From contig OY987252.1 in assembly GCA_963920765.1 (NCBI GenBank), positions 3,209,966-3,273,965 on the forward strand: DNA of 64,000 nucleotides. Direction: 5' to 3'. Below the pieces are notes generated by a model. That model saw only the letters and a list, made by a program, of their open reading frames with translations. It searched no databases and was not told the origin of the DNA. Positions 13,475 through 60,005 of this stretch are shown in pieces; position 1 is the stretch's first letter, and the number at the start of each line of letters is the position of its first letter. Origin of the DNA: Ulota crispa (taxonomy: Eukaryota; Streptophyta; Bryopsida; Orthotrichales; Orthotrichaceae). The position numbers were made by a program, and so were the translations under genes.

Positions 13475-13925
13475 TGTAAATAGAGATTGTCATACACAAT
13501 ACATCCTATAACTATCACAAACATCAAACAAAAACAAAAATGAAATTCAAAACATATATACAAATATGCTCTCAATGACAAGATACAAAATCTAGGCACT
13601 AAACATCAGTTAAACTATCTCTCATTTTGCTCATGAGATAATCCAAAAGTGCAAAGAGAAATCGGAAAGAAAGTATATAACTCATGAAGACAACAACAAG
13701 CGTGCTCTCTCTCAAATAACTTGACAAGACTTGACTTGGTAAAGAATGCCAAGTCAAAGAAGCAACGTACCTTAACTACCAAACCCTAATTAGTCTAAAA
13801 AAGAGGTGCCAATTGGAATGAGGTGTCAGTGGCCCTAAACTTTCCTAAACCAATTAAAGATAAAGACCATCTATCCAATGATCTACATCCGATGTGGCAT
13901 ACCCACAATGCCACATAACGTGACA
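13475..13925 (-). repeat. Candidate 3' LTR of the Ty3/gypsy element
   Basis: In plus orientation it runs from TGTAAATAG to ACGTGACA, so it has TG..CA ends. About 340 bp of it (13585-13925) match 29617-29955 in the same orientation, with landmarks ggcactaa.catcagtta, agctatctctca, accttaactaccaaa, ggaatgaggtgtca and gaccatctatccaatgatct. Its first 95 bases are repeated at 13933-14030, seven bases beyond its end. Confidence 0.5.
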
Positions 13926-13932
13926 ACTATTG

Positions 13933-14030
13933 TGTAAATAGAGATTGCCATACATAACACATTAATAGCTATCACTAACATCAAATAAAAACAAAAATGT
14001 AATCCAAAAACATAATACAAATATGCTCTC
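13933..14030 (-). repeat. Partial tandem copy of the LTR start
   Basis: TGTAAATAGAGATTG, followed by the catac..aacatcaa..aaaacaaaaatg stretch, repeats the sequence at 13475-13570. It sits between the candidate LTR and the polyprotein tail, so it may be the remains of a second LTR joined by unequal recombination. Confidence 0.5.
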
Positions 14031-14389: not shown

Positions 14390-14575
14390 TGTCCGTAGAC
14401 ATAGCATGGCCTAAAAATCTCCTACAACAAGGGCAAATCCAATCTTCTGAAGGTAGAATCGATAAAGGCGAAATTAATCATGTCATATGCTAACCATGTT
14501 GGCACCGGTTACACAATAGTATAGTAGCCGCGCCTTTCTTCTCTCCACAAATAAAACAAAATAATCCATTTGGCA
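14390..14575 (-). pseudogene. PHD finger at the C-terminal end of the gypsy polyprotein
   Basis: The minus strand shows CFIC, eleven residues, LLCNRCQHG, then H-M, then ICPCC after about 18 residues. This is the C4-H-C3 zinc pattern of a PHD finger, a reader of histone H3 tails. Two expected positions are stops in the same frame: a Trp before HM is TAG (one change from TGG) and the Cys after HMT is TGA (one change from TGC). The frame is continuous with the integrase upstream through RFSRGDYVYL, the spacer and HSKNCAPCHL. By family logic such a module would direct integration to chosen chromatin, as chromodomains do in chromoviruses; that role is inference. Confidence 0.75.
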
Positions 14576-14739: not shown

Positions 14740-15776
14740 AATGTAGTAGGCGCCTCACATTGCAAATATACATAATCTCCTCGAGAGAATCTGTGCAACT
14801 AAGGTTGATAAGCATTGCTATAAATGCACGCGTAACGCAAAGAATCTTGATGTTGGGTTATATGTAAGTTCTCCAAAGCCATAAGTACGGCCCTCTTGAA
14901 GAATTCAGCTTGATCATATAGGCATTGAGCCCAAACATTTGGACTATTCAAGTCCACAATTGAAGCCAGCTTTTGTTGTATGGAGTTGGATAAAATAGGC
15001 TCCCGTCCATATAATAGCTGGTAAAGGTTGTAAGAGGTCAAAGAACCTTGCCTACTAAAATGGTAACCCATGGCAATCCAAAGTAACATCAAATCCAAAT
15101 CTTGATGACTTCCACAGAATAATCCATACTTGTGTAAATCACATTTGACTATTTGAACAACTCGTTCAGCCAAACCATTTGCCTTAGGGTAATTTCTAGA
15201 GGTAGTGCAGTGATCAACTAAAGCCTTAGGGTAATCTCTAGAGGTAGTGCAGTGATCAACCAAAGCCTTGGTGCATAGAGTTTCAAAAATCCTTAGAAAC
15301 TCTTGGCCTTGATCTTTCAAGACTTCAGCCGGTGCTCCAAAACGTGCCAATACTCGGTCAAAAAATGTCATAGCTGCCAACTCTAAAGAGTTATGAGGCA
15401 AAGCAACAAGCTCAATCCACTTGCTAAAATGCTCTACCATCACCAATACATATTTGGCTCAACGTGGGATGACAATAAGTGGCTCGGTAAATCCCAAAAA
15501 CCAACAATAACCTAAATCCATGATGGATAAAGGCATCAATTGTGGTGATAAGGTGTTAAAACTTGATCTCGCTTGATCACACACTTTATGTTAAGAAACA
15601 TAGGTGGAGATTTGGTGATACATGCTAGTCCACCAATACTGATTGCGCAATATAGAATGCGTTTTGCGCACTCTAAAATAAGCAAGCTCCTCATGCACTT
15701 GCAGTATGAAAGAAGCTCTCTGGTCTAATCGATAAACTATGCGCCTAGCTTCATTCGGCCAAACTTGAATCAACAA
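14740..15776 (-). pseudogene. Ty3/gypsy integrase
   Basis: The N-terminal H2C2-type region is at 15776-15591 (LVHEELAYFRVRKTHSILRNQYWW-like, ending WTSMYHQI); the catalytic core follows at 15446-14799 with EHFSKWIEL, the second acidic site in KDQGQEF and the GLAERVVQIVK helix carrying the last Glu. Integrase joins the cDNA to host DNA. A 42-bp tandem duplication at 15182-15265 adds 14 residues (LVDHCTTSR..YPKA twice) between the second and third catalytic acidic positions, which would probably disturb the core. An in-frame stop separates it from the PHD part. Confidence 0.85.
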
Positions 15777-16199
15777 GTCGTTATTCCAATGGAACCTTGC
15801 TATTCAATGGTAAACTCTATCTTGCTCTATGATAGAAATATCCATGAGGAATGATCCATGCTGAAGTTAGTGCAAAACCACTGTATCTTCTCAAACATCT
15901 CCAATATTCTAAGACTTACCAGGCTCATCATTCGGACCTAGATCAATCGCCTAAGTAGCAGAGCTTGACATCAAAGTCAAATAAATAACTATGCACCAGT
16001 TCGGAACTGCTTCCCTGTTGCAATTTCCATATCATCTAGTACCAGTCAAATCTTCATTAGAGGAACTTAGATTGTGAGAAAGTCCATTCGCATTCAAGTT
16101 AGTGATACCAGCTCACTGAATAACTTCAAAGTCATATTCTTGAAACAATAGAGCCCATTTAGCAAGCTTGCCGGTGAGTTTATCTGACTCCTTAAGCCA

Positions 16200-16427
16200 C
16201 TATAAAGGTTGATGATCTATCACTAATGTATACCGCTGCTCATACAAATACAACCGAGAATGTGAAATGGCCCATACCGCAACTAAAACTTCCCCCTCAT
16301 AAGACGAATAGTTAGACTTTGCCAAGTTGTTACTCCTTGAAACAAAGGCAATAACATACTCCCATCTTTCATCATCTTTCTTAGCCAAAACTGTACTTAA
16401 TCGCACTGCACTCCAATCCGTGTGCAA
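16200..16427 (-). pseudogene. Ty3/gypsy RNase H region
   Basis: Clear match to the RNase H block following gypsy RT: HTDWSAVRLSTVLAKKDD, AFVSRSNNLAKSNYSSYEGE, AVWAISHSRLYLYEQRYTLV and DHQPL. It degrades the RNA of the RNA-DNA hybrid during reverse transcription. Same frame as RT upstream and integrase downstream. It is cut by stops on both sides. Confidence 0.9.
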
Positions 16428-16619
16428 TTAAAAAGGCCTAGTAAAATTTGGACGTCAAAGCACAAGTGCTAAGCCCAACTTGTATTTCAACATATCAAAA
16501 GACAACTGCTGCTCACGGCTCTATGTTCAAATCTGGCCTTTGTCAGTGAGCATAGTTAAAGGCTTGGTAACCAAGCTAAAGTTCTTGACAAAGCGGCAAT
16601 AATAATTCCTTAAGCCAAG

Positions 16620-17300
16620 AAATGCACGTAACCTTGGAACATCTCACAATGCTGGAAGCTTTTAAAGAGCATCCACATTTACCTACTCTATGCCAAGTCC
16701 TCCTAGAATTATCATGTGTTCCAAGTTTAACAACCAATCATGGAAAAATTTGCACTTGCCATGATGCAAGCGCAATCTCCACTTACGCAACCACTCAAAA
16801 ACGGCTTGCAAATGCCTCACATGTTTTTCAAGTGAACTACCAAAGATAATAACATCATCAATGTAGCACCAAGCAATGGCAATCATGTCAAAACACAGTC
16901 CATCACCCTCTAAAACTCAGCAGGTGCGTTTTTAAGACCAAATGGAAAAAACATCCAATGATAGAGTAGATCTCTGCCATCATGATCTACTCCCCAAAAT
17001 GCAATTTAAATACGATCTTCCAACCATAGTAGCAATTGATGATATCATGATCTCAAATCCAATGTATTAAGGATTTGAGCCAATCCTACTGCATCAAATA
17101 ATTCCTCTAGTGTCGGCATAGGATATCGATCTGATTTGGTCTTTTTATTGACCAAACGGTAATTTCCACACATCCTCTTCTAAGTCCAATTTCCAAATAT
17201 ATATCATTTTTAGAAGGCATCACCATAGCACAAGCGTACTCGTCATTGGATAACTCCATCAAACTCGCAGCTAAAACCTTTTGACATTGGGTTTAAACAC
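16620..17300 (-). pseudogene. Ty3/gypsy reverse transcriptase
   Basis: The catalytic YIDD box lies at the start of the 16886-16683 frame (AWCYIDDVIIFGSSLEKH), followed by RLHHGKCKFF and a HMI.LGGLGIE stretch typical of gypsy RT. Upstream, between about 17300 and 16890, fragments such as NDEYACAMVMPSKNDIY and RPNQIDI correspond to the N-terminal RT region but are broken by stops and shifts. Confidence 0.85.
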
Positions 17301-17665
17301 TAGTCTTCTCAAAACTACTGAGCTTGTAAAGTTATTTGAATATATGATGATCATCCTCAAGCTAAATGTGAATGAACTTGTCTTTATAACCTTCTAAAAA
17401 GTGAAGGTTGAAACCAAAGCAATACTGGTATGAGTGTATGAATGCTCGCACGTCATGTGTCTCAATATCTATGAGATGATGACCTAAACTCAAAGGCCAA
17501 TCATCAAACTTCATGATAGTCTTCTCTATCAACGGACCACCACCAGATTTACTATTGTAAATGAAAATGATGCTTAGAATCCTCTCTAATTGTAGCGATT
17601 GACATTCATATTGCCCCCTCACCATTATCCTTTGCCTCCAAAGTGAACAAATGGCCACATTGTTG

Positions 17666-18640
17666 TTAAATAGCAAGGCAAACACCAACACTCCAAATCA
17701 AGGTATAAAGATCCATAGCTTGACCCAACACAAAGAGTTGTTGACTTTCAATGAGATCATGAGCTGCTATAGTGCCAGTCAAAAATCCCATGACATGCTC
17801 TCGCTCATCCACATTGGGTTCCTCATAAATGTACCTATGAGAATCCCACACCATGTTAGGTCCACGTGCTCGGAATGCAAAGAATTTAAGATATATAATA
17901 AAGGTCAGTAATACATTGCAAGGCTTTCCAACCTTGTTGACCAAAGCAAAGGGAAGTAAATCATCTTTGGTCACAGCCAAAAATTCCCTTCAGTTATCCA
18001 AAATATCCTTTACAACACACTCTAAAGGTTTGATAACCAGTAAAATTGCTTTAGCCAACATAGAATGTAACATCATGTTGGTTCAAAGCCAACATGGTCA
18101 ATAAGCAAATGGCCCTAGTGCAGCGGCATCTGCAAAGGTTGAAGGGCCAAGAATTTGGCAAATGTAGTGACCATCCTCCATCACTTTTGATTGGTCATCG
18201 CTCAACAAAGATACATTCTCAAAAATATTCCTAAATAGTGTGATTTGGTGGTTATATCACCACTGTATAAACCTCACCAACTCCATAAAAAAGCTAGATC
18301 TTTGGTCATATAACTCTTGACTTGCACTTATTCGTTAGTGACCATAGCAAGGCCATCCTGCCACAAGCAAATCAATGTGGCTCAACCTCCTCAAATCCTC
18401 ATCATCAATAAAAGTAACGTCTCTAGGAAAGTGGCCAAAACATCCATGAATGGATGATGGAGGCAACTGCTTAAGAAACTGAGCCATCAATTTCTGATGA
18501 TGATGATGGGCTGCTCTGATAAGCACATAAGTATTATCAACATGAACGTCCTGCCAAACCATGAACCGAGCTTCTAAAATGGCTGCCAATCCGGTGCCAA
18601 TGCCTCCAAAATGCTCTACTAAAGTAACTTTGTCTAGAGA
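17666..18640 (-). pseudogene. Cytosine-5 DNA methyltransferase domain inside the retrotransposon
   Basis: On the minus strand a single frame runs over the whole domain. Motif I is HFGGIGTGLAA at about 18619-18581 (family: F.G.G or DNMT3-type DGIATG). Motif IV is IDLLVAGWPCYGH near 18375-18336, where the catalytic Pro-Cys is intact but the usual following Gln is Tyr. Motif VI is FENV with the codons for ENV at 18220-18212. A motif VIII-like AY.P.WL.T follows with Arg and Trp codons turned into stops or Cys. The end carries a motif IX/X-like DEREHVMGF and LGQAMDLYTLIW at about 17720-17675. Stops inside are at the positions expected for Ser, Trp and Arg. These enzymes put methyl groups on DNA cytosines. 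Domain size (about 320 residues) fits a minimal DNMT3/DRM-like catalytic unit. It lies between protease and RT regions. Confidence 0.85.
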
Positions 18641-19023
18641 TGGGCACGAATGAATAAGTCATTTAAGCATAAAGCAGATAAGGGTAGAAGCCAAAGAGTA
18701 AAAAAGTACAGAAGCTAAAATGTTCCCACATTGTTGGGACAACTTCTGATGGCTAGTCTAAGGTGGCAAAACATCCTTGGATTGCTGAGGTGTAGCCACC
18801 AAAATCAGTGACTTTTGTTGGTCCTTTGGAAATGTGGCTGCAAACGCCAAGGTCTCTTCTAAAAGTGAAGGACAAAAAGAAAGGCTCTCCAAAGATGCTA
18901 AGCATCCAAACATATCATCAATAGTGGTAGATATAATTAATGCTGCAAATGCCACCGAAATCATCTCTTTCTGACCATTGTTAGAAGATCATCTTGGTAA
19001 AATCCACGCCTCTTTGGTCCAGT
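18641..19023 (-). pseudogene. Polyprotein linker upstream of the methyltransferase
   Basis: Same minus frame as the methyltransferase, with two in-frame stops. No motif recognised; residues such as EETLAFAATFPKDQ and ATPQQSKD are visible. The reading is interrupted at 19026 by the CACTA-like insertion and resumes beyond 22158. Confidence 0.55.
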
Positions 19024-19950
19024 TATCACTAGTAGAAAATTTAGCACAAAATCAACAAAATTTCAACCAAAAATTATTGACTTTTTCTGTGGATTTGGTT
19101 AAGTTGATTTGGATACTTTTCTATTGATTTTCTGTTGATTTTTTGTTGATTATTTACTATTTTCCGTTAATTTTTTGTTGATTTTCTATTACTTTTCACA
19201 TATTTTATGTTGTTCAATTCTATTTTTTTTCAATTTTTCAATTTTTCAATTTTTTTTTCATAGATTTTTTTTTTAATAAAACGGTGAATTTTTTTCAAGA
19301 GCCGAGCAGCTGCCCAAACCTCCAAGCAGCTGCCCACATTACCAAGTAGGGCTGTTGGCAGTGGGGTTTGAATGTCCCACCACCGGGTTCACGCTCCACA
19401 ACTCTTTTGCATTACTCACAACCACTAAAGCACATGCCCACACACATGTGCATAATAGAACCATGATTCTATTTGTACATTAAATGTTCATGTTTTTAGT
19501 AAGCCAGTAGACTTTGAAGGTTATTTCAGCTCTTTAACGGACCTTTTTTCAAAAAATTTAGAACTATGAAAAGTTAGTAAATGTATTTTACTTTCACCTC
19601 CAACAATTTTTTTTGGATTTCAATCATTTTATCAAAATCTATGAGCTAAAATCAAAGAAGGTGTTTAGAAATTTTAAAAAAATTGTTTATTTCCATTCTT
19701 TTGATTTTTTGTATAAATTTTTATTGGAATTCACAAATCTCAAAAAGATTGTTGCTGGCAAAGGTTGGATTCATTAATAATTATTATTTAGTGCTAGTTT
19801 TTTTGTAAAAAGAACCTTGTTCTGTTAAAATAGCCTCCATAGTTTGATCGCTTTAAATAACATCAAATTGTGAAAAGTTACGGAATTAAAACCTTGCAAT
19901 TAAAAAATCAAAATTCTATTGACTTTTGAATAGTTTTGGATATTTTTCAA

Positions 19951-20361
19951 GGGCATTAGTATGTGAACCACACCTTTTGAACTACTATACCACACCCCCG
20001 AGGTAAATTTTAGATTTTTACCATCAAAAATTAGAGTTTGAGAATTTTGAATTCAAATTTGGACTTAGAGACCATGATTTAGATCAAGGCCATAAAAAAA
20101 GTTGCAACTCAACAACATCTAATGAAAAAGCTTATCTTTTTTTACAAACAAAAGTAAAATTAACAATTTTCTCCCTAACTAAACTTTTTCATTGGGTGTT
20201 GTTGAATTGCAAATTTTTTATGGTTCTAGACAATACCATGGTCTCTACGTCCAAATCTGAATTCAAAATTTTCAAATTCAATTTTTTGATGGTAGAAATC
20301 TAAAAATTACCCCGTAGTGTGGTATAGTACTTGGAAGGGTGTGGTACACATATCAATTCCC
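19951..20361. repeat. Fold-back element with about 180-bp arms
   Basis: The left arm 19951-20130 and right arm 20184-20361 are reverse complements at roughly 80 percent identity; landmarks are ccacacc, ctactataccacac, agattt.taccatcaaaaa, ttttgaattca, agagaccatg, ccataaaaaa and aatgaaaaag. The spacer is about 53 bases. It lies inside the CACTA-like element and is either a nested MITE or an internal inverted duplication. Confidence 0.85.
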
Positions 20362-21299
20362 ATCTTTTAAAGTTTATAAGAATATTTTATAAGATTGTTT
20401 TTTTTTAATTCATTTGGTTAGTAATAGAAGGAAAAATACTAAAAATACCCTTTAAGTCTTTCAAAATATCAAGTTTACGCCAAAAATATTTGAAACATAA
20501 AAAATATTCCTTATTTTTTGTAGGAATATCAATTATACTCCTATTAATTTGGAAAAATAATAAAAAAGCTCTTCTATTTTGAAATGTTAAATATATCCTT
20601 GTGTTATTTGAAATGTTGAAATCACCTTTGGTTTCTTGTAAGAATTTGCATTAAACTATATACTTGGTTATCATATAACACAAAGATACAAATAATTAAA
20701 AATAGTTGAAGAGCATTTTTAATATTTTTCTAATATATTATAAGCATTCTTAATATTTATACAGAAAGGAAAGAGGTACTTTTAATCCTTAAGGGACATA
20801 TATGATTTTTTCAAAGAATTGAGGAGCATGTTTTATATTTGTTTGTTAAGAAATTTTGGTATTTAAAACAACAAAATGTTGTACTTTTTATATAAAATTT
20901 TGTTGAATTAGTGAAGTTGTGTCTAAAAGTGTCCAGATCAACAAGAACTGTTGATTTTTTTGTTATTATGGTCATGTTTCTATTTGACTTTAAAGGCTGC
21001 TAATTTTAAATCTAACCAAATTGTGAAAGGTAAAGAAAATAAAACCAGTCAATATACACTCAAACTTCTAAAAGATTCTATTTTTTTTGAAAACTTCTTT
21101 CATTTTTTAAAACTCCAAAACATTTTAATGAGGTACAAAAAGATTCTCGAAAGATTTCAAAAACAAACCTAAACTATTGTAATAGTTTTTTTATTAAAAA
21201 TATTTTAAAGTATTTTGATGAATTACAAAAAGATTCCTAAAGGACTCTAATTCAGTCTAAGAGATTCTATTTCTATATTAATTTGAAGTACTTTAAAAA

Positions 21300-22000
21300 A
21301 TTTCATAAAGATTTTAAAAAGATTTTCAAAGATTCCAAAAAGGTTCTTAAAAATTCTTAGAGATTCTCAAAGATTTTTAAAATTTCCAAAAAGATTCTCA
21401 AAAGATTCCCAAAGATTCCCAAAGATTCCCAAAGATTCCCAAAGATTCCCAAAGATTCTTAATGATTCTCAAAGCTTCTTAAAGCTTCTAAGAAGATTCC
21501 AAGAAGATTCTTAAAGATTTTCAAAAATTCTCAAAAAAATTCAAATTCCTAGAACATTTCTAGAGATTCTCAAATATTCCAAACTATTCTAAAAGATTCT
21601 CAAGAATTCTGAAATATTCTTGAAAGATTCTCAAGGATTCTCAAATATTCCTAAAAGATTATCAAAGATTCCAAGAAGATTCTCTAAGATTCTAAAAAGA
21701 TTTTCAAAGATTTCCGAAGATTTTCAAACATTCTCAAAGATTTCAAAAAAAATTGAAAAGATTTTCAAAGATTTCCAAAGATTTCCAAAGATTTCCAAAG
21801 ATCCTCAAAGTTTCTCAAAAGATTCTCAAAGATTTTCATAGATGCCTAAAAGATTTTCAAGGATTCCAAGAAGATTCTCAAAGATTCTAAAATCTTGAAA
21901 AGATTCTTCAATATTCTTACAAATCCTGACAAGATTTGCAATGATTACCAAAAGATTCTTAAAGATTCTTAAAGATTCACAAAAAATTCCCAAAATATTC
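21300..22000. repeat. AAAGATTCYC minisatellite
   Basis: A degenerate tandem array of about ten-base units around CAAAGATTCC/T fills some 700 bases. The purest part is 21403-21458, where ATTCCCAAAG is repeated five or six times without change. The open frame running through it is a by-product of the repeat. It is internal to the CACTA-like element. Confidence 0.85.
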
Positions 22001-22471
22001 TAAAATTTCTGTTGATTTAGATAATGGTGTCCAAATCAACAGAACATATTTAGTTTTTTATAGGATTCTGTTAAATTAGTCAATTAGCGTGGGCAAGTGC
22101 CCAAATTAACAAAAATCTGTTGGTTTTTTGTTGTTTTGGACGAAGTTCTCTACTAGTGTATACATACCAAAATCAAGAAGGTAAAGCACTTGCTGACCAA
22201 CTTAGATATCATAGTCAGCAGCATTAGTGATAGCGCACCTCAAAGAAAAGTGAGAATATGTACGTCTTCCACTCATTCAAAAAATCTATTGTAGGAGCTC
22301 TTTGGTGCAGCTTGTAGTACGTTCTATGCCTTTAATTGAAGTGACAATCGTGAATAGACAAGCCACCATATCCTTAGCAGTCAAGTTAAGTCCTACCACC
22401 AAATTTTTACCTATCATAACTAGCTAGGCATCTGAGTCCATCATCACCTTAAATAGAGTAACTCGATGACC

Positions 22472-23089
22472 TTACTCTTCACCACATGAAACCACAAACA
22501 TCCCATTATTGTTTATTAAATAAACAACATCTGGGTGTACAATCTGTTGCTCTCTAGCACAACTTGTTGAAATATTTGCAAGATAAGTTGCTCCTTCTGG
22601 TAAAGGAACATCCATAGAAGAAAGATGCGATGTGTGGATATCCACATGCTCACCAAATGCTGCAATGGCTTTGGTTGCAAGCTTGGCTCGTAGCTTTGTT
22701 TGAGCTTCTGAATCCTGAACAGAAAAGGTGTTGACAACCACCTGAGAAATCTAAAGAGATGATATATTTGCCTTTCTTTTTAAAACACGTCCCACCATAT
22801 GAAAGACCTTAGAGGCCTAGAAACCAAGTGCCATCAACTTTGAGCTATAAAATATCAGCATTTGTATAATCTTGTAAGCTATGGTTTGCAAAATATTGAA
22901 TGAGGTAGAACTTCCATGATGTGGAAATGAAACAACACAACGTTTGTCCGTGGCAACAGAATCAGCCAAATTAAAAAATAATGGTAGACGTGTCTGGCTA
23001 ATGGAGTCAACTGAACCACTATGACGTGCTCGTGAGACAGCCGTAACATTTGGCACTGATGAACCAACTGATCCTCTAGAAGTTTGAGA
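22472..23089 (-). pseudogene. Gypsy polyprotein, protease-position region
   Basis: Same minus frame as the downstream methyltransferase. The visible stretch 22741-22472 reads with landmarks VQDSEAQTKLRAKLATKAIAA, SMDVPLPEGATYLANI and EQQIVHPDVVYLI. No DSG or DTG protease triad is visible, so assignment to protease rests on position between gag and the methyltransferase only. The frame continues to 22162, where the CACTA-like insertion begins. Confidence 0.5.
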
Positions 23090-24027
23090 TCAGGTAGCAG
23101 CTGCAGCTTCCAATTCATCAAATGCGTCGAGTATGTAATGCTTAGAGCTAGAATAACCAGTTATAATCTTGGAAGATGTCCCAGAATTAGAAGCTTGAGC
23201 CAATGATGCAGAGATTTGGAGTTTTTGCTCCAACTCTACTACCTTAGCCTCAAGGGTCTTCTCCCTTTGTAACTTAGCAGCCACAAAAATAGCTGGCTTC
23301 ATCTTTGGATGAAGTTGAAAGTAGTGATCATCTTCATGGTAAGTGCCACTACAAGAGTTATACTTCAAACCTTTTTTTTTGGGCTTAGCTTCACCATCAC
23401 TTCTTCTTTTTTAATAGCCTTGGATGGCTAAAAAAGAGTCTTGGATTTCTCTAGGTAATCCTTCTAAATATGTCCATCTTCCCCACATTTCCAACAACGC
23501 ACAGTCCTATTTGGTTTAGTATCCGTTAAACTGCTAGTGATAGCAAAGGTCTTCCTAGATTTGAAAAAATCTGTTATGGAGGTGACCATATATGTAGCAT
23601 CATAATGACAAAGTGCCCGATCACATCTTTCAACAACAGCAAAATCTTGGACCAAAGTAGCCATACCTTTATAATCAAAGATAATCCAAGGGGATGCTAA
23701 ATTCGGCAACCATTTGTTGATCTTTAACAAAAAGATTTTCACAAGTTAACTCTTGGTGAAAACTCCACCAGATTTGTTAGCAAATTGTACCAAACAAGTG
23801 TACATGGTATGTAGTGTATCCTCCTTCTCCCTACAAAAATCCTACATACACTGCATTTAACCACAACGGAATCCACCATGCTTCAATTTCAAATGCGCAA
23901 TAAATTACGCTATCAGATCAAACTAAGGTGGGGAATCAACTATTGCTAATGCCGCATGAGCAACATGTGCCATGCGCGACATGATGGGTGGTATGGCATT
24001 ATCTGTCCTTGGTCCCAAAGCTATTGC
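23090..24027 (-). pseudogene. Gypsy gag with zinc knuckle
   Basis: Gag packages the RNA. On the minus strand, landmarks are MSRMAHVAHAALAIVDSPP (about 23990), REKEDTLHTMYTCLVQFANKSGGVF (23840-23760), LPNLASP.IIFDYKGMATL and the knuckle CWKCGEDGH at about 23490. The final Cys of the CCHC knuckle is a Tyr, and the residue after GHI is a TAG stop. A second Cys/His cluster (NSCSGTYHEDD) follows, then a KLQREKTLEAKVVELEQKLQ coiled coil. The N-terminal part is cut off abruptly at 24027 where CACTAGAAAAAAA starts. Confidence 0.75.
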
Positions 24028-27000
24028 CACTAGAAAAAAACGTGCAAAATAAGACTCTATAAACAACTCATTTTTTAATTGTTTAGAAAAGAAATGATTC
24101 CTTTACGACTATACAACTGTATAGTCATGTCCTTGTTTTGAAAAACTTGTCATTTAGAACATTTCAATAATACAATAATTCTCATCTATTCAATACAACT
24201 GACACAGTATTAACTTCTCTTTGTCAGATTTTTTTTTCAATGGGTCATCAATTAAGTGACCGGATAAATACTAGATTCTCTACTTATATACGACTATTCA
24301 TAGGTACGATTACAACTGCAATACAACTTGTGGTAGGGCCCACTTTCTTCCATTTGTTCTGTTCCTATTTGTTGAGAGCAACTTTATGGACATTTATTAA
24401 CAATTATTTTGTCCCTAAATTACATAATGTTTAGATGATTGTGCTAATGATAATTATAGTTGTTAGTCAAATTTTAGTTGTGTAAGTCATTTATGGAAGT
24501 ACTTTGTATTGTATTAGTGTAATTCTGTAGTTGTTATTGAGTTGTAGTTGAGTTGTGGTTGAGTTGTGGTTGAGTTGTAGTTGAATTGTGATTTAGTCAT
24601 AATTGAGTTGTAATTGAATCATAGTTGAGTCATAGTTGAATTGTGGTTGAATTGTAGTTAAATCATGGTTGAATCATAGTTGAATTGTAGTTAAATCATG
24701 GTTGAATCGTAGTTGAGTCGTAGTTGAGTCGTAGCTTAGTGGTTATCTAATCATCATGCAGTTGTATAGTAGTTCTTGTTCAATCATGGCATAGGGATAA
24801 TCTAGTGTGTACAAAGCCATGGTAGAGTCACAGTGCTATTATAGTTTAGTTGTTAGTTAGATACTGCAAAGTCATATAGTAATGATCAATAGGTTATGCT
24901 ATAGTACCACCACAGTAGCCACTGAATTGTATTAGAGTCACATTTTATTAGCCACTGAGTAACAACAAAGTCATAATTCATTGGACAAGTAGTTGCTTGT
25001 AGAAGTGATTTTGTAATCACAAATTCATGGCATAGTAGTAACACAGTGAACACTGAGTAATATGAGAATTGTGCAATTGTACTAGTTACTGAGTTATAAA
25101 ATAATAAGACCCTATTTGCTACAAACATATCTTAGTTGCCATTGAGTCTTACTAGAGTTGTACCTTTCTAGCATCTGAGTTTAATCACACTTCACATGAA
25201 ATCCAGGAGTTGCCACCTAATTGTCACCTAGTTGTCACTTACTCCATAATTAATACACATAGTTACTTCAAAGTACATATCAATTGTATACAGCAGATCA
25301 AAAAGCTTCATGTATATTAGAAACTCATAGTGCATCTGCTATTTAATTAGCAATCACTGATTATAACACATTGTCTTTTGTATCCACTCAACATCATGTA
25401 CACACGCTTGCAATTCCATATAGATAATAAAAACAAAACATCAAACTTAGTTACAATGTGGTATTGCTCGGAGCCAAAAAACCTTGATAAATGTGTGGAA
25501 CAAGCAAACTTGCAATGAACACAGAGCCAACAAATCTAAAAAAGAGTACGGAACCAACAAACTTTGACAAGTGCTTGGTGCAAGCAAACCGAAGAAGAGC
25601 GCAAAGCACTTAAACTAGAAAAAATCTTGGAGCAAACAAACTTAAGAAGATCGCATTGTAATTGAATTCCAACGGAGCAAACAAACATGAGAAGAATACA
25701 AAGCCAACAAACTTTGACAAGTGCAAAGTGTCAACAAACCCTCAGAAGAGCACAGATCCAGCAAACCAAGTCTGCGGAGCTAAATCCTAAACTCAAAGGT
25801 GGCGGCTGCATCTTCACCCTACATACTACCAACCATAATCTCAAAATGAATGGCTTAAACTAACTCTAAAACTACAACTTGATTTTAAGGGTGATTGCTA
25901 ATAAAATTTAAATAATTTTTTGTGGCAAATTTAACATCAACAATGTATCTAAAATACATATTTATCTCAAAATAGACTATTCACATGCTGAAATCCAAAT
26001 TGTAAAGTATTTGTAACAATTTTTTTGCAAATTTTAAAATTCTAACTTCTAATATTTGAATGTGTTAATTTAAAAAAAATAAATAAATCACCTCTTTTTT
26101 ATTTCTGTTTATCTTTAAAAAAATTATGAAAAAAATTATTATTATTATGAAACATACGATTTTAAGCTTTCAAAGAGCTTTAATTGTAGCTTTTTAATTG
26201 TTGTTAATAATAGTAATAGTAATAATTGAACTTATGACTCAAATACAACTAAGCTATAACTAGCACATGCTTGGAGAATATTATAATGATCTCACTACGA
26301 TTCATGTAAACCTAAAATACGACTAAAGTTTTGCTAAGCCTACATTTTAGGAAGCTAGCCAAAATACACCCCTTTAAATAATCGGTTGGAATTGGAGTGG
26401 AAAGAGCATGACATTTCTTGTTTTGTAAACATTCTCTGGTAGGTGCTATTGAATTGTCTGCCAAAAAGGACATATTAGCATGTGCAAGGTATTAGTAAGC
26501 ATTTGGTTATTGGCACTCTAAATAATGCACTCATTACTAACATTGATGAGATGAGCTAGTCTAGACATTTTAAACAACTCAAGAGAATGGGTTCAGAAGA
26601 AGAACAAGCAATAAACAACTGGACTAGAACAACTACATAACAAGTACACAACAATAGTAGGAGTAATTGAGTCAGTTTGTAGTCGCTTAGTAGTTGGTGT
26701 ATAGTCTCATAGTTGTTGTTTAGTCAATGTAAAGTCAGAGCTTAGTCTTGTAGTTGTTGTGTAGTTGATATCAAGTCAATTTACAATTGAGTAGTTGTTT
26801 AGCAGTGGCAATGATATAGTTGTTTTCATGACCAAATTTGAAGATAAAAGCTTCAAAAATGTATCACAAGTAGCAAAATAGTTCAATTGAGAAGAAGAAA
26901 CGCATTGCATCTACAATACAACCGCATCAGTATAGTTCCTAATTAGATGTAGCAGTCTAGCACTAATCAACGACTATGGAACAACTAGGAAACCAATCGT

Positions 27001-27419
27001 TAATGTGCACATCTTCCAATCAAAATAAGAATGGTATTAGAAGCTGCAACGCAGACAGCCTAAATATGAATCTTGTTAATTATTTAATTTTATTCTATCA
27101 AGAGTTGTTTTATAGTTGTCCTATAGTAATATTCTACTAGTAAAGAACAAGGAGTCATTTATTCATACGACTCACATACAACTCTAAGTCAAAGATGTAA
27201 GATTGCTCTGATGGTAGCAAAGATTTCATCTGATCATGGACCCAAAATTGTTCATTCCAAAATGTGCACAACAAACCTCATCTCCCAAGTCAAATAAAGA
27301 ACTGCACTACAACTACTACAACTTCAGCAATGACCAGAGTTGCTTTGTTGTCATTGTGCAGTCGTTTAGGACAATAAGTTGTTTGCTATTAGTCAGATTT
27401 ACCAACGTTTCTTTCTAAT
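24028..27419. other. CACTA-like terminus followed by GTTGTA/TACAAC-rich DNA
   Basis: CACTAGAAAAAAACG at 24028 breaks the gag frame, as an insertion terminus would. The following 3.4 kb is dominated by AGTTGTAGTT words and their complements in both orientations, including the tandem array at 24528-24745 and looser groups near 25200 and 26660-26820. This resembles a CACTA subterminal region. I did not find the far end with a matching target duplication. No gene is visible in the interval. Confidence 0.45.
24528..24745. repeat. GTTGAGTTGTA minisatellite
   Basis: About twenty degenerate units of 10-12 bases (gttgagttgtg, gttgaattgta, gttgaatcata) in tandem. The same word family recurs at 54120-54600. 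Confidence 0.8.
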
Positions 27420-27800
27420 GCGCTTTGCCCTTAGGATCTTCAGAGGCTGATCCCTCATCTTTGTTAGGTTTCCCTTTTACTTTCACAGCTGAGGAAGCTA
27501 AGGCAGCTATTGTGCCATCCTTGAGAGCTGAAATAAGCTCTATCCGCATCTCCCATTAAAACTGCACTTCAAGAAGCTAAAGCTGATGAGCATGGGTCCA
27601 CTGCTCATAAGTTAAGAGGGCTTCAAACTCCACATATTAGGACAAAAGCTTAAAGGCAAACCTGTCATTGAAACTAGATGATCTTTGACGCTTTTCCTTG
27701 ACTCATGTGGAAAAGCAAAGCCTCTAATCAGGAAGGGAAATTCTTTCTGCACATCTTGAGAATCAATCACATACCAAACCGCAATGATCGTCATCTATAT
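27420..27800 (-). pseudogene. Unassigned coding relic
   Basis: The minus strand holds two protein-like stretches: 27794-27612 with IIAVWYVIDSQDVQKEF and FPHESRKSVKDHLVS, ending PNMWSLKPS; and about 27548-27425 in another frame with ELISALKDGTIAALASSAV and KGKPNKDEGSASEDPKGKAH. They are separated by shifts. Amino-acid composition looks coding, but I do not recognise the family; a transposon-borne gene is the likely source given the surroundings. Confidence 0.35.
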
Positions 27801-28869
27801 CATTGAATGTGCCCACACTCAAGACCCAAAGCCTACTAGTAGTATCCAATGCCAAATCATGCTAAAAACCTCATTGATATCTACCATTGGTCCAAAGACT
27901 TCTCTATGGTTACCCTCTAAGTAGTCTGGTGAGGGAAATCAATAATATTGGCTCCTAATCTACACCATAAACGGACTACTTGAGTATCTGCAACTATCTA
28001 AGGCTTAGAGCAACCTACAACTATCTAAAATTTAGAGTAACTTGCAATTATTTAAAAGTTGAGGGCAACTTGACCTGCAATTACCAATAAACTGTGTGGT
28101 TTACTGGTAATAACATCCGGTGAGTACAAGTCCAACACATACAAAAAGGATCTCATCGGTAATCAAGCCAGTCTCACCTTTACAATACACCCACCCCCAA
28201 TAAAAATACAAAATGAGACAACACTAGATATCCTCCAGCAACAATGTTTGCAAATGAGGAAGGTACCAAAAATAAAATCCAAAATACAAATCTTGGACCC
28301 TCTTTTCCAAACAACAGATAAGCAAAAATGAAATCTGCACAACCGATCAAAAACATCTAAAGAACGGGCCACAATTGTTCCATAGAGAGGATCAATATAA
28401 TGACACTTAACTGCTTTCCTAAGAGATCATTGCCACTCCTTTACAAGTTGCATATTAAACAATTGAATAATCTATTTGCGCTTTTTCTTTTCGGCCCAAA
28501 ACTATCACTCAACGACAAATAAAACAAAAAGAAAATCAACACAATCGGCACACCATTGCGGTTAGTGGCAAATAGCAAAATAGAATACAATAATCTGCAA
28601 TTCTAATGCCCTCAAATGTAATGTCCAACAGTCCCACGAGAATTTAATAGTTCTCTGTAAAACTTGTTATACAATACAAGTGATGAAATTCCAAAGGATT
28701 GCTTTCAAAATGTTTAGGCTTTGCATATAATCCTTTTTCAAATACTATCGGCTAAGCAACTTGTATATGAAATCAATGGGGATAGGAAGTGGGTGAAAAA
28801 CCTCACAATGATTAAATAAATCCTTATAAAAATATGCTAATTGAAAAATTTGAATAGGGGGATGAAATC
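27801..28869. other. No gene recognised
   Basis: AT-rich sequence without motif-bearing frames. A short palindrome accaataaac..gtttactggt lies near 28085-28111. Confidence 0.4.
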
Positions 28870-29480: not shown

Positions 29481-29616
29481 TAAGCCTTTGCACTCACAAT
29501 TAAGCTCACTCAAATATGAACCAAAAAACAAAACTAAAAAATCCAATATCTTTGTAAACCATGAAGAATCAAGAATTAGAAAAAAAAGTAGACTTCTTTG
29601 CCAAGTGATAAGATAT

Positions 29617-29955
29617 GAAATTTAGGCACTAAGCATCAGTTAAGCTATCTCTCACTCCGCTCACGGAAGATTCCAAGAGTGCAAGGAGAAACCAAAAAAT
29701 ATATATATAATTCATGAAGACCACAACAAGTTTGCTCTCTCTCAAACAAACTCACAAAACTTGACTTTGCAAAGAATTTCAAGTCAGAGAAGCAATGTAC
29801 CTTAACTACCAAATCCTAATTGGCCTAAAAATGAGGTGCCGACTGGAATGAGGTGTCAAATGCCCTAAACTTCTCTAAACCAACTAAAAATAAAGACCAT
29901 CTATCCAATGATCTACATCCAATGTGGCATAGCCACAATGTCACATCATGTGACA
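29617..29955 (-). repeat. Candidate 5' LTR segment of the Ty3/gypsy element
   Basis: Same-orientation partner of 13585-13925, ending GTGACA at 29955. Its left limit towards the GC-rich island is unclear; weak similarity to the 13475 end starts near 29500. No TG start, primer-binding site or target duplication could be fixed. Confidence 0.5.
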
Positions 29956-30799
29956 AAGAAGAATAAAAAACAAGTTACTCTTGGTTTTTAAGTTTTATCT
30001 TTATAGAAGTGTAATTATTGTTAGAACTCTAGTTTTCAAATCGATTATGTGAAATTTTATTTTGAATTTTCTTTATTGTCTTTAACTAAAAAATAAGATG
30101 TTAAAATTATTGTAATTGTGTAGAGTTATTTAATTTTGTGTAGATCTAATTGTGAAGACTGTTCCTTTTGTTGTAGCCTAAAAATGACATAATTTATTTT
30201 GTGGAGGAATCCAACTTTGTAGGACATTCATTTGAAGTGAACGTAATTATTTAAGTGCTTAGCAGCTATAAAGTTGGCAATGATAGGAACTCCATTGCTA
30301 GAGCTATATTCCATTTAAAGCTTGTAGAATGTTCATTCTAACCAAATGGTATGTTTTTGGAAAGTAGAATCTTGATTTCTGGTGTCATATGGTTGGTACA
30401 TGTTGGGATCAACTATGATTGGTGCTGTGATCTTATCTCTAAAGTTAAAGAATATAATTTAGAAGCTAAGCTAATATAGATTGGGTAATTCTTTTGAAGA
30501 TGGTTAACAAACTTAGCTTATACACATTTGCTAATTGATTGTAGACTTTGTTTAGAATGGAGACACAACAAACTAGTACTGCAGCAAGATTTTGAGAAAG
30601 AAAAATACTAAAAGCTACATTGTAGAGGTGGAAAAAATATCCATTCCACATTTTCCATGCAATTTATTGCGGTTGTTACTATTATTTGCATATTAGGCAT
30701 CATGGGAGGCCAGACAAGAATGACAAAGTGGTGTGTATAGATGTTGTGGTGCTTGACACTTCAAGGGTTGCTTCCTATAGCTGCTTCTTATAAGTCTAT
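29956..30799. other. No gene recognised
   Basis: AT-rich DNA between the LTR-like repeat and the next CACTA relic. No motif-bearing frame. Confidence 0.4.
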
Positions 30800-31300: not shown

Positions 31301-32636
31301 TTGGACATAAGAGAAGACTTACTTCTTGCACTTCAGCAGGGCAATATGTAGTATTTAAACAATTACTAGTTCCACATCAATGTAATTTAGGAAATTTATA
31401 AAGCTGATGCAAAACTTGGCGAGACATAATACAGGTAGAGGTTGTTGAAATGAGGTTGACAATAATGTAGACCAGTGTCTTGATGGTGAGAGAGCAAGAC
31501 ATGTACTGTATCTTGGATGTATGAAGCAACATAGTCCTAAAAGATTACATAGGAATTCCAATTACAATGACAAAGACAAGGTTGAGGCAACAGTGCATAC
31601 AACACATCTTGGATTCTTGATAGAGGTTACAAGCAATGTATGTGTACAAGTAGGCACATCTAAAGTACACATTGAGTGCAAGTTGATTTGTTTAAGGTGC
31701 CCAAAAATCATAAAGAGACCCATGTTGATGACAACAATATTGTTTACAACAATGAAAATGTACACAATAACTTGATTTCAAGAGATATATTGCTTTTCAA
31801 TAGTGAGGTGCTTGAAAGGTAATATATTTAGTTAATTTTATGTTCACAATAACTACAACTCTAATTATACTTAGAGACATTGTAATTACAAGTAGTACAT
31901 TATGATTTGGTTACCTTGTGTGTTGAACTAGAGATCATGGGAAGGTGGTGAATACTATGTCAATGGAAGGTGGATAGAAATTACTACTAGAGTCAAATTT
32001 GCGACCCTTACAAGCATAAGAATGTTTGGTAGATCTTAGTTTAAAAAATCCAACAGAATAGTAAAAGATAAAGTTCTCCAATAAACTACATGGCACCAAA
32101 TACTTTTGTCATATCTAAGGTTCATGATTTATAGGCTATTGCTAACAAGTGTATGATGTTGTGGCAAAATTGATGAAGATGGCACATATAGCATTTCCTA
32201 GGGCATGTATAGGCAAGAATCAATGAATGGAATCAAGAACTTTCTAAAGCCGTGAAGTAGAAACAATCTTTACTTCTCCAATGGTGCACAAATTATTAGT
32301 AATTTTGATATAGTAGTGAGGGTTGGTAGTTTTTGGGCAAGTATGGTTCAAATGAAGATCAACCAAGTAGTTATTAAAATTGAAAAAGTGCTACTTCTTT
32401 CAAATATACCATTTTCATCACATCTTTGTATAATTGGAATTTTTTTGTCAAATAGAATGTGCTTTGTTGATTTTACTTGAAGTTTGTGTATCATAAGTTA
32501 TTTGTGTTAATTTGGAATTGCAAGTTATTTACAAGTTATGTCATGCATTTGTTTAGTATAGTGAAGTGGAAAAGTAATGTAGTGTTTTTTTCACCATTGT
32601 ATACAACCTCAAGTGTTATATATAATTTTTCTATTT
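31301..32636. other. No gene recognised
   Basis: Probably the non-coding remainder of the CACTA relic ending at 31300. A plus-strand open stretch at 31521-31775 has no motif I can name. Confidence 0.35.
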
Positions 32637-33268
32637 TTGGATTAATGCAAGGTTGCATGTCTCAATTTTGGCTAAAGTCCCTATCTTCAAAGCCCTTTAA
32701 GTGGGTTAAAGGATTTTGATTCAAGTGTTAGTTTATAATTGCATCAAGTGTTTGGGCGCCAAAGTGACCTCTTCAAGTCTATAATGGACTTATAAACTCA
32801 ATCAATGGCCTAATGTTTCTAGAATTGTTCTTTTTGAAATTACACACTGCAGGCTGTGTTCTAGGGCTTAGACTTAAATCAATCAAAGTTACTCAAAAAG
32901 TCCTTACTGCTAGAAGCACCTCTAAAACTTAGAAAAATACTCAAGTTGAAAAAAAAATAGGAAAAAAGTAAAAGACAAAGGAGAAAAAGACTTTGTAAGA
33001 TCTAAGGTTTAAAAAAGCATTAAAAAGTCCTTTGCAACCATTCAATACAAATTTATAAAACAAGATTATAATTTCTTAAAATTTTATTCAAATACCCATT
33101 AGACTCCTAGTCCTTTGAATTTTTTTAAGTAAATTTGAAGTCTTTGCAATGGCATTTTTTTCTTTTTGAAAATTTCCAATGTACCTTTTAGGCATTTGAA
33201 AATTGAATTTGTGCAATTTTTATAGTTTGTCACGTTTTTGAGCCACTCAACCATGCATTTATCTTTTT
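32637..33268 (-). mobile_element. Dispersed element B, copy 1 (inverted relative to copy 2)
   Basis: Related in the same orientation along most of its length to 51880-52653 when that copy is reverse-complemented at its outer part; matching landmarks include aatgcaaggtt at the left, gaggccact/gtgacctcttcaagtc, cttataaactcaatcaatgg, taggcttagacttaaatcaatcaaagt, ccctttaagtgggtt, and gagccactcaaccatgcatt at the right. The ends carry the inverted pair AATGCA.GGTTGAGTGGCTC. Copy 1 is smaller. No protein is encoded. Confidence 0.65.
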
Positions 33269-37994: not shown

Positions 37995-40900
37995 AACTTA
38001 TCAAAAGTGTGCATCTCTACATGGATGGTGGCTCTGTCACCGCTGTGCAGCAAGAGTTTCTTCTTTCGCCAGACGTTTATACACAAATCAGTGACCCTAT
38101 ACCATCATTTTTCAGCAAGTTTGCTTACAACGGTGCAAAACAGTTTATGGACACACTGAAGCAATTGAATGAGATGGATTCATGGCAATGCGTGCTGGAG
38201 TACCATGTCCATACGCCCCAGGATACGTCCATAATCCCTTTATTGAGTGTATCCAAGTATGTGTCATGGGGTTCATTTCGTGCGTATTGAGGCCGTGTCA
38301 TGCTTTGAATGAGTGTTTTTAGATTCAATTTAGTCTGAGACAAAACAGTGCAAATGTTATATGTGGTTTATGCCCCGTGTTAAGCGATTGAGGTGCACTA
38401 GTGTGCTGGCCAAATTTACTGGGCATTTGCATCGTGTGCAGAAATCCAGCTCTGTATTACATTCCAACCTTGGCGGAAGATTTAGTCATGGTCGAGAAGG
38501 CTGTTCAAAACCCTCTGCAGAGACACCAGTCAAGTTTACCCCTTCTGGATCCCGATTGTCAGACTTATCAACAGCATTTTTCTGGCTGTGGTGGCCAGTA
38601 TTACATGGACAACACACACCTTACTTGGAATTCTCCTAAGTGGAACCTTGGTGGCATTTCTGGTCTCAATGTTGAGTCGTCTGGATTGAATGACTCTCTG
38701 GACAACGGAGTGCATAGCGAGAGTAATTCTCAAGCAGAAAACTTGCATGACTGGGGCTCGGACTTAGAATTGGCTAGCCCTCGAATGTTTGAGACGTGTG
38801 TGTTAGGTTCGTCATGGAGTACGAGCATCTCGAGTATGCCGTTTACAGGTTGGATTGACGGGTTTCCTGTATCTTCTCTTTGTTTCTCTATATTCTGACG
38901 TTGAAGTTCGCAATCTGACTCTAATATGTCGGTTACCTCTTTCTTGTGTAATTTACCTGTTTTACTTTAGTATTTCATAATATATGAATGTGCATCTTAC
39001 GTTTGTGTTCCATGTACATGTAAATTTTGAGATTATGACGATATTCCCGTTTGTAGGACTTATGTCCAGTTCTTGTCTAACATCGAATGTGACCGCCAAC
39101 AACAAATCCGATCATCATTCTTGGAGTCCCTCGACTTTGGTTGTGGAAACTCAAGTGGCTGGAACATATGCCTTTCATGAAGCGCTACCTTTTTCTACTG
39201 ACAACAATGGTCAGGCCAAGGTAACAACCTCCAGTGACGCTTCAGATAGTGCAGCACTCTTTCACGGTGATTTATTTCCGAGTCCGTTCGGCACAAGTTC
39301 GACAATTTCTGATCGTATCAGTCCACATTCACCTTTAATGAAGAAAGTCGCAGAAAATTTAATATCCTACTGCAGCGATGAAAGTGTGAGCGAACCAGCT
39401 GGATCAGAGAGGCTGACTCCTGCCTACTCTCCTGCCGCCTTACAGTTTGATCTACAGAATTGTAGTGCCAGTAATCACAGTGACGGGGTATTGCTGCATC
39501 AGACTTGCTCGTATGAGCTGACTGATGTTGGAAATGTTCTTGGAAATGTGGGAGCATGCCTTTCTATGAACACGTCGGGAAAGGGAGCCGAGCTTTGCAA
39601 CCAACGGGGAGCAACTGAAAGGATGACTGGCATAACATTGCATGAACTTTCTCAGTATTTTCGCATGCCCATAACTCAAGCTTCCAAAGAGCTGAAAGTG
39701 GGTCTCACCGTATTGAAAAAGCGATGTCGGGAGTTTGGCATTCCCAGGTGGCCACATCGCAAAATGAAGAGCCTAGACAGTCTCATCCAGAACATTCAGG
39801 TAATCTTCGTGCTCTAACCATTACTTGCTTCTTTGCGTTTCTGCCTTTGTTTACTCACTCATCTGTTAGTTTAGTTACGTACTTATTCATGCCATTTTGC
39901 GATGACTAGTTTTGAACAAATTTTTTTGGGCGTATCGATTGAAGGTTTTCGACTGCACTCCTCTTACTGATGCTTGATTGTTATGGTTTTCTGGTAGATC
40001 TTCTACTGATATTCTTCATGTGAACTGTGAATGGAGTTTGTGGTTGATTCTTTTAACGTTGAATTATTGTGTGCAGCCCGTTATCAAATGGTTTTTAGCG
40101 TTTTTAATCATTAAAATGAAATCGCAGCACAAATCGTCAATGGATATCACTTCTGCTAATTTGATGTGTATGTGCGAAGGGTTTTTTATTCAAGATATGG
40201 TGACACTCTGTATATTTCTTTTAGTTCTTGCTCATTCCTATCGAGATTCACCCATTTACGGTTAGTGACTCATGATTGAGCTTATGCACGGATGGCAGAG
40301 TTAGTGTGATTAGGATTTGCTTGTGCTTGTTGAGTGGCTAGAATTATGTGAATTAGTTTTCATACGGGTGTGATTAGATTCTTATGGTTGCAGGCCCTTT
40401 TGAGTTAGTCTAGTTCATTTCTGGTGGCCAGCACGCTCCTTGTCTTATTTGTTCTTCTGTGATTATTCGTTTATTCTATTGCCATCATGTGACATATCTT
40501 GCTTATATCTGTCTTCCTAGGTTTTTATCACTACTGCTTACTCCTACCCTCAATGGCGTGAGTGTCGGATCTTTGAATTATGTTTTAGGAAATATGACCC
40601 CTCGTATCTCCGCGTGGTAACATGCAAGAATATTTTTAGGCGATATTCCGAAATTCTTGAGATTTGTGAAGCTTAGCCCAATTTTCCTGTCCAGACATTC
40701 ATTTATCATGCGACAATAGTAATTTGTTGTTTTCGGTTAGTTGGTTTTGTGCGTATAACTGATGAAAGCAGCAAGCATAGTTCTAATCGAATATGATATC
40801 TGGTTGGATGGCATCAAGCTTGGTTCACCACTGTTTCTTGTGAAAGAATGGCAGTTGATGCTTTAACATTTGGAATAAGGTATCTGCTTCCTGTATTGTT

Positions 40901-51879: not shown

Positions 51880-52653
51880 TTGGAGGGTGAATGCATGGTT
51901 GAGTGGCTCAAAATCGTGTCACATTATAAAAAATTGCACACATCCAATTTTCAAATACCTAAAAGGTACATTGGAAATTTTCAAAAAAGAAAAAAAAAGT
52001 CCATTGTAGAGATTTAAACTTCATTATAACTACAATAATGTTGTTTGGTTTTGTTTTTGGCATTTTATGGAAGTGTTAAGGAATTTTGAAAAAATATGAG
52101 TGACATTTTGGCTGGTAGCAAGTTTTTCAATAACTTTTTAAAAATGATACAGTTACTTAAGAGAATACAATGGACTAGGATTCTAGTGGGTATTTGGATA
52201 AAATTTTAAGAAATTTTAATCTTGTTTTATAGATGTGTATTGAATGGTTGCAAAGGACTTTTTAATGCCTTTTTAAATCTTAGATCTTACGATGTCATTT
52301 ACTCCTTTGTATTTTTTTTTTCCTATATTTTTTTTTCAACTTGAGTATTTTCTAAGTTCTAGAAGTGCTTCTAGCCTTACGGACTTTTTGAATAACTTTG
52401 ATTGATTTAAGACTAAGCCATAGAACATAGCCTATAATGGGTAATTTAAAAAAAAAATAGGTTTAGAAACATTGGACTGTTGACTAAGTTTATAAGTCCA
52501 TTATAGATATGAAGAGGCCACTTAGCCGCCAGGACACTTGATGCAATTACAAACTAACACTTGAATCAAGATCCTTAAACCCACTTAAGGGACTTTGAGG
52601 ATAGGGACTTTAGCCAAAATTGAGCCACTCAACCTTGCATTAACCTCCAAATG
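51880..52653. mobile_element. Dispersed element B, copy 2, with about 32-bp inverted ends
   Basis: Left end TTTGGAGGGTGAATGCATGG then TTGAGTGGCTC; right end, read on the opposite strand, TTTGGAGGTTAATGCAAGG then TTGAGTGGCTC. Interior corresponds to copy 1 at 32637-33268 in opposite orientation. No protein encoded. No clear target duplication. Confidence 0.75.
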
Positions 52654-59473: not shown

Positions 59474-59950
59474 AGTATTGTGCATAAAACCTCAACTCCA
59501 CATACACCGCAATAAAATAGAGTGGCCGAGAGGGCCAATCACACCATTGTAGAAATTATTAGGAGCACAATCTATGGCCAAAAGCTTGGGTTGGAATATT
59601 AGGCCGAGGCCGTGAGCAATGCGGTGTACATTTGCAATCGATGGCCTACTAGTTCGGTGCATGGCAAGATTCTACAAGAGGCGTGGAGTGGGAGGAGGCC
59701 TTTGGTGGCACGCATTAGACTATTTAGGTGTGTTGCATATGCCAAGATTCCCGATGCATCAAGGACCAAGCTTGATGCAACGGCCGTAAGGTGTTTGTTT
59801 TTGGGATATTGTGAGGGCTCCAAAGCATATAGGTTGATTTGCTTAGAGTCTAAAAAGATCATCCGATGTTGAGATGTAACCTTCTGTGAACATGGAGAGT
59901 TGCAAGAAGAGTTGGAGTTGGGTTGAAGTGGAAGTAGCGGTGACCTTATT
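59474..59950 (+). pseudogene. Copia integrase C-terminal half and linker
   Basis: Continues in the same frame: NRVAERANHTIVEI with the third catalytic Glu, AEAVSNAVYICNRWPTSSV and RLFRCVAYAKIPDASRTKLD, CLFLGYCEGSKAYRL. Stops TAA 59513 (Gln expected in PQQN), TAG 59600 (Trp expected before AEAV), TGA 59870 and 59924. Confidence 0.9.
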
Positions 59951-59974
59951 GTGGACACACCTCCAACGCCCTCG

Positions 59975-60005
<31 letters not shown>

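Follow-up and report, generated by a model that had tools for sequence, protein, structure and literature searches.

A decayed Ty3/gypsy-type retrotransposon with a DNMT3-like cytosine methyltransferase and a PHD finger in Ulota crispa

Because cytosine methylation is what plants use to silence transposons, an element with its own de novo methyltransferase reverses the usual arms race. Whether such an element has existed in a land plant is the question raised by a stretch of 64,000 nucleotides from Ulota crispa (Bryopsida; assembly GCA_963920765.1, contig OY987252.1, positions 3,209,966 to 3,273,965), hereafter the window. An initial annotation, made from the letters alone, had described a cytosine-5 DNA methyltransferase (DNMT) lying between the gag/protease and the reverse transcriptase (RT) of a Ty3/gypsy element on its minus strand. 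A Ty3/gypsy-type element carrying its own C5-cytosine methyltransferase is supported by the present analysis, and the enzyme is a trait of the element's relatives, not an accident of the window copy. This copy is old and dead; its identity as a Ty3/gypsy-type retrotransposon is close to certain, and its repeats are probably split.

The minus-strand frame 18964-17666 was found to contain all of the methyltransferase motifs first quoted for it, in one register and with no frameshift, though with 7 in-frame stops. When the stops are read as X, it matches the C5-cytosine methyltransferase family PF00145 with E=6.8e-5 and 22.9 bits, above the curated cut-off of 22; among 14 relatives scanned, the 11 that carry the domain score 27.8-53.3 bits. 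Motifs I (FGGIGTG), IV (GWPC) and VI (FENV) and the motif X-like end (LGQAMDL) align with the relatives, and one Arg of the motif VIII stretch is replaced by a stop. A tblastn search with the related protein P0001 recovered a single one-frame stretch at 19027-17609 (P0001 residues 808-1281; 53% over 474 columns, E=3.6e-153); the range 18640-17666 is the catalytic domain, and the coding stretch begins upstream, at about 19026. At five or six of the 7 stops, the residue in the relatives is Trp, or in at least some of them Arg, which fits C-to-T decay.

The enzyme is DNMT3-like by profile and predicted fold, its motifs being in the normal order and not rearranged as in DRM. The best PDB match of the broken window DNMT alone reached only E=0.66, while a profile of seven relatives gave clear matches; the DNMT3 class scores well above the DNMT2 and tRNA-C38 enzymes (22-28 bits). 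DNMT1/MET1, CMT and DNMT5 chains were absent from the matches listed (50 and 59 rows), which does not in itself exclude a family that is not listed. A methyltransferase match was obtained in 82 related proteins, and the catalytic Cys is kept in all 74 that cover its site. The Pro-Cys of motif IV has become EC in 21 of these 74 (P0061, P0063, P0108 and 18 others), which may reflect altered chemistry or a different substrate. The DNMT is as conserved among the relatives as the protease.

When the proteins of relatives were placed on the window by tblastn, a colinear minus-strand element emerged, running from gag through protease, DNMT, RT, RNase H and integrase (INT) to a PHD finger. The order gag-protease-RT-RNase H-INT and the DDE integrase are those of Ty3/gypsy (Metaviridae-type) elements. 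From the 5' end to the 3' end of the element, its features are as follows.

29606..29956, minus strand: repeat A1, the 5' end of the element
27421..27968, minus strand: gag, N-terminal part
24028..27420, minus strand: CACTA-type insertion 1 (3.4 kb), foreign to the element
22159..24027, minus strand: gag, C-terminal part, and aspartic protease
19027..22158, minus strand: CACTA-type insertion 2 (3.1 kb, AT-rich), foreign to the element
17609..19026, minus strand: C5-cytosine methyltransferase (DNMT3-like) with N-terminal linker
about 18655-17666, minus strand: DNMT catalytic domain, within the preceding feature
16137..17541, minus strand: RT and RNase H
14799..15722, minus strand: integrase, H2C2 zinc-binding domain and DDE core (rve)
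14424..14558, minus strand: PHD finger at the integrase C-terminus
13933..14030, minus strand: repeat B1
13576..13926, minus strand: repeat A2
13475..13573, minus strand: repeat B2, the 3' end of the element

The position proposed for the methyltransferase, between gag/protease and RT, proved correct, but it is hidden locally by insertion 2, which separates the protease from the DNMT. A Pfam scan of five pieces gave no family match in the stretch before RT. A 5'-truncated copy without gag and protease was considered and rejected, since tblastn with the relatives located both beyond the two nested insertions. The N-terminal part of gag is matched by P0003 at 58-61% (residues 1-38 at 27968-27855 and 40-182 at 27852-27421), with one frameshift near 27855; the C-terminal part and the protease are matched by P0001 residues 196-396 and 382-813, the second match extending 14 bases into the insertion. 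Insertion 1 has the inverted ends CATTAGAAAGAAACGT / CACTAGAAAAAAACGT and imperfect flanks, GCG / GCA (ends placed by eye), and the gag alignment breaks off and restarts there. Insertion 2 has the ends CACTAGTAGA / TCTACTAGTG and a 3-bp flanking duplication, ATA; degenerate tandem-like repeats (self-matches about 72%) occupy 21294-22010 inside it.

The RT-RNase H-INT-PHD stretch spans 17541-14388 and is matched by its closest relative, P0015, in three stretches at 57-71%. RT and RNase H were recognized as RVT_1 and RT_RNaseH (P0015 residues 6-129, 119-227 and 225-1042), with frameshifts near 17200 and 16883. The integrase matches PF17921 (E=5.8e-9) and PF00665 (E=4.7e-9, or 1.8e-9 against 15458-14799). 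The PHD finger scores exactly at the PF00628 cut-off in the window copy (E=4.1e-5, 24.0 bits), as against E=1.4e-11 in P0015; its nearest fingers by sequence are those of CHD4, PHF12, PHF21A, KDM5A/B and ATXR5, and by fold those of ATXR5 and BAZ2B. Most of these fingers read unmodified H3K4. Judged from relatives in which each is unbroken, the first open reading frame (ORF) is Gag-protease-DNMT3-like methyltransferase and the second is RT-RNase H-integrase-PHD.

The element is bounded by two kinds of repeat. The A repeats (351 bp) are identical at 295/351 positions (84%), ungapped, and the B repeats (roughly 98 bp) are 87% identical over 100 columns, or 87/108 over a slightly longer stretch; the Kimura two-parameter (K2P) distances are 0.18 and 0.23, respectively. 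A2 is sandwiched between B1 and B2 and no B match lies beside A1, which gives the order A-coding-B-A-B, as read from one decayed copy; this is the repeat order of DIRS elements, according to the text of PMC5890265. The inserted element could start with TG, end with CA and carry some additional bases where B meets A internally (by eye), as would be expected if a DDE integrase had trimmed a B|A circle junction. It is unlikely, though worth weighing, that the repeats are instead ordinary long terminal repeats and that the B pair arose by a later local duplication. The reliance on a single copy, the greater K2P distance of the B pair and the want of a convincing target-site duplication at the outer ends (by eye) would agree with this, but the two B copies sit directly next to A2, at 2-6 bp on either side, and have no match beside A1, and a DIRS-like order is also reported for KnitGypsy-Dnmt3, a gypsy element (PMC5890265, in the text available).

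A protein search with the window DNMT, in which only candidates sharing most words with the query were scored, listed 14 relatives, of which 13 span the whole stretch at 39-53% identity. P0001 is an unbroken Gag-protease-DNMT protein of 1376 amino acids with two zinc-knuckle-like CxxC motifs in its gag part (by eye); its protease domain (residues about 700-770; E=1.6e-4, 22.7 bits) falls slightly under the Pfam cut-off of 24.3, and that of P0013 (26.2 bits) is above it. A census of 114 proteins, biased in that they were collected by the window DNMT, the window INT-PHD and the P0014 DNMT, gave the orders RT-RNase H-DNMT-INT-PHD (26), RT-RNase H-INT-PHD (18), DNMT-INT-PHD (14), protease-DNMT (12) and shorter or other (44). 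Intact relatives without a methyltransferase between protease and RT did not turn up, in searches that were seeded with the DNMT and unable to reveal relatives lacking one.

Trees of the two parts of the element were compared. In the RT+RNase H+INT tree, restricted to the window and proteins with all three domains after removal of P0108 and P0045, one branch (Shimodaira-Hasegawa approximate likelihood ratio support, SH-aLRT, 98) parts 31 rows with the DNMT between RNase H and INT from 22 without it, and the window element lies on the 22-row side. Within these 22 rows, a DNMT upstream of pol was seen only in the window and P0046 (its label Tetstr1 being taken to mean Tetraselmis), and outside them in P0095, P0108 and P0112. 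An INT tree that includes P0108 and P0045 gave the same split (52 vs 29 rows, 5 unassigned), with a support of just 52. The DNMT tree, with 75 rows and a weak root, has as its distant outgroup six of 18 viral-contig loci with short matches, all taken to be phage-type methylases. One of its groups (55 rows, support 98) comprises 37 proteins with the DNMT after RT, 17 with the DNMT beside INT and RT unseen, and 1 DNMT alone; the window falls in a 16-row group (93) with the 12 protease-DNMT proteins, next to P0001 (80), with P0083 and the Calypogeia protein P0087 at the base. P0108, P0111 and P0112 of Closterium and P0095 were placed in neither group. The agreement of the DNMT and pol trees suggests that the DNMT is a long resident that has travelled jointly with the element and shifted its position once.

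Named relatives were found in liverworts, Calypogeia fissa (P0035, P0047, P0087) and Riccia sorocarpa (P0039, pol only), and in algae, Closterium sp. NIES-54 (P0108, P0111, P0112) and Tetrabaena socialis (P0048, P0049, P0051, P0052). The Tetrabaena protein P0048 has no DNMT match, and P0049, P0051 and P0052 have weak ones of 40-64 bits. P0111 is a short protein whose N-terminus looks gag-like (by eye) and whose DNMT, which comes next, lacks the motif IV stretch; no protease was detected in it. The text of PMC9998398 reports no DNMT3 in the green algae of MMETSP, a result from which the algal elements found here would depart if confirmed. Some members of the family seem to be transcribed, since P0021 and P0057 are labelled as transcript-assembly sequences.

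Retrotransposons of this kind have been described before. In Klebsormidium nitens, the gypsy element KnitGypsy-Dnmt3 carries a DNMT3, and its repeats are structured like those of DIRS (de Mendoza et al. 2018, PMC5890265); judged against that paper's text, the window copy has the same set of traits, namely gypsy-type domains, an unrearranged DNMT3-class enzyme inside the element and the DIRS-like repeat order. In KnitGypsy-Dnmt3, however, the DNMT is described in the Pol polyprotein ORF, whereas in the window it shares an ORF with gag and protease and RT lies in another frame, and the word 'PHD' is absent from the main text on the Klebsormidium element. No Klebsormidium-labelled protein is among the matches listed in the DNMT and INT-PHD searches. 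SymbioDIRS-Dnmt3 of Symbiodinium likewise has a DNMT3-class enzyme within A-coding-B-A-B repeats (PMC5890265, in the text available), but it integrates by a tyrosine recombinase, whereas the window element has a gypsy-type DDE integrase in the usual gypsy place. A 2025 survey reports DNMT3 members within retrotransposons of streptophytes and dinoflagellates; its available text, which cites the 2018 paper, gives LTR Copia and DIRS as the families, whereas the window element is gypsy-type (PMC12344493). Ginger1 elements share a gypsy-like integrase, some with a C-terminal PHD finger, but they are DNA transposons, and the PHD is listed for them alongside a Ulp1 protease domain (PMC2836005, in the text available). 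The RT-RNase H-DNMT-INT-PHD polyproteins (P0053 and kin) have homologous DNMT, RT, RNase H, integrase and PHD domains; their DNMT lies between RNase H and integrase and they fall on the opposite side of the pol tree from the window. The kind was thus already known from Klebsormidium. The literature searched, mostly open-access, yielded no description of a DNMT-bearing retrotransposon in a land plant, nor of a gypsy element with both a DNMT and a PHD finger. Features that appear to be new within that literature are a PHD finger in such an element, an ORF that joins Gag, protease and DNMT, the second architecture, and an occurrence extending to liverworts and land plants; part of that wider occurrence may already be in the supplements of PMC12344493.

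As for what the enzyme did, its fusion to Gag and protease means that it should be produced at the level of Gag and travel inside the particle. We infer packaging, release, methylation of complementary DNA (cDNA) and PHD targeting as successive steps, and rate this explanation as a whole at a probability of about 0.6. The methyltransferase would be packaged as a Gag-protease fusion and freed by the protease, and would then meet the element's new double-stranded cDNA and methylate it, or the DNA of the insertion site, ahead of integration or as it takes place. Through its PHD finger, the integrase would bind the tail of histone H3, probably in the form without a K4 modification, and direct integration to silent chromatin, where a pre-methylated copy would do little harm to the host and be taken for self DNA. 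Of the functions considered, self-methylation of the cDNA is the likeliest, at roughly even odds. The nearest experimental support is the CG methylation produced in yeast by two dinoflagellate retrotransposon DNMT3s, SymbioDIRS-Dnmt3 being among the active ones; the Klebsormidium enzyme was negative in yeast, an inconclusive result (PMC5890265, in the text available). Only tentatively can it be proposed that the acquisition of a DNMT3 and of an H3-reading PHD by a gypsy lineage predates the split of green algae from land plants and that the lineage has retained both, a reader of integration sites and a writer of DNA methylation thus sharing one particle and its copies arriving methylated in silent chromatin.

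De novo DNMT3-type enzymes can act genome-wide, and the methyltransferase might have acted in trans on host loci or competing elements, or disturbed host silencing, in place of methylating its own cDNA. The unusual methylome of Symbiodinium, with hundreds of such elements, would agree with this, but that of Klebsormidium is land-plant-like (both from the text of PMC5890265), and the fusion with protease and gag in the window's group favours action inside the particle, so that action in trans is improbable. Still more doubtful is a role in methylating RNA or as a nucleic-acid-binding chaperone in the particle: the EC variant and the RNA methylation raised for LINE elements in the text of PMC5890265 could be read in its favour, but profile and fold place the domain in the DNMT3 class, the catalytic Cys is invariant, and the domain is conserved like the protease. 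That a host DNMT gene or fragment landed by chance in the window copy alone, as its single copy there might allow, can be dismissed, since unbroken Gag-protease-DNMT relatives hold the enzyme in one ORF and the DNMT and pol trees divide the family alike.

The family brings together, in a single mobile element, a finger of histone-reader type and a writer of DNA methylation; in animal DNMT3s the enzyme is likewise coupled to PWWP and ADD domains (PMC12344493, in the text available). With unbroken full-length members in public data and an open DNMT frame in Calypogeia fissa (P0087), the question is experimentally testable.

Elsewhere in the window, an RWP-RK domain host gene (E=1.8e-24, RKD-like by eye) lies at 38981-39817 on the plus strand, and the long open frame directly upstream of it (38392-38898, plus strand) may be part of that gene. 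Together with the element's liverwort kin, the gene points to a land-plant host. It is flanked by the arms of an inverted repeat, 32636-33259 and 51890-52651, about 86% identical over up to 0.5 kb and about 19 kb apart. A Copia-type reverse transcriptase (RVT_2, E=1.8e-69) occupies a 419-residue open frame at 59927-61186 on the plus strand. DUF4218 is associated with CACTA transposons, and an open frame with this domain (E=6.8e-8) was found at 598-1212 on the minus strand; the two insertions nested in the element are also CACTA-type by their ends.
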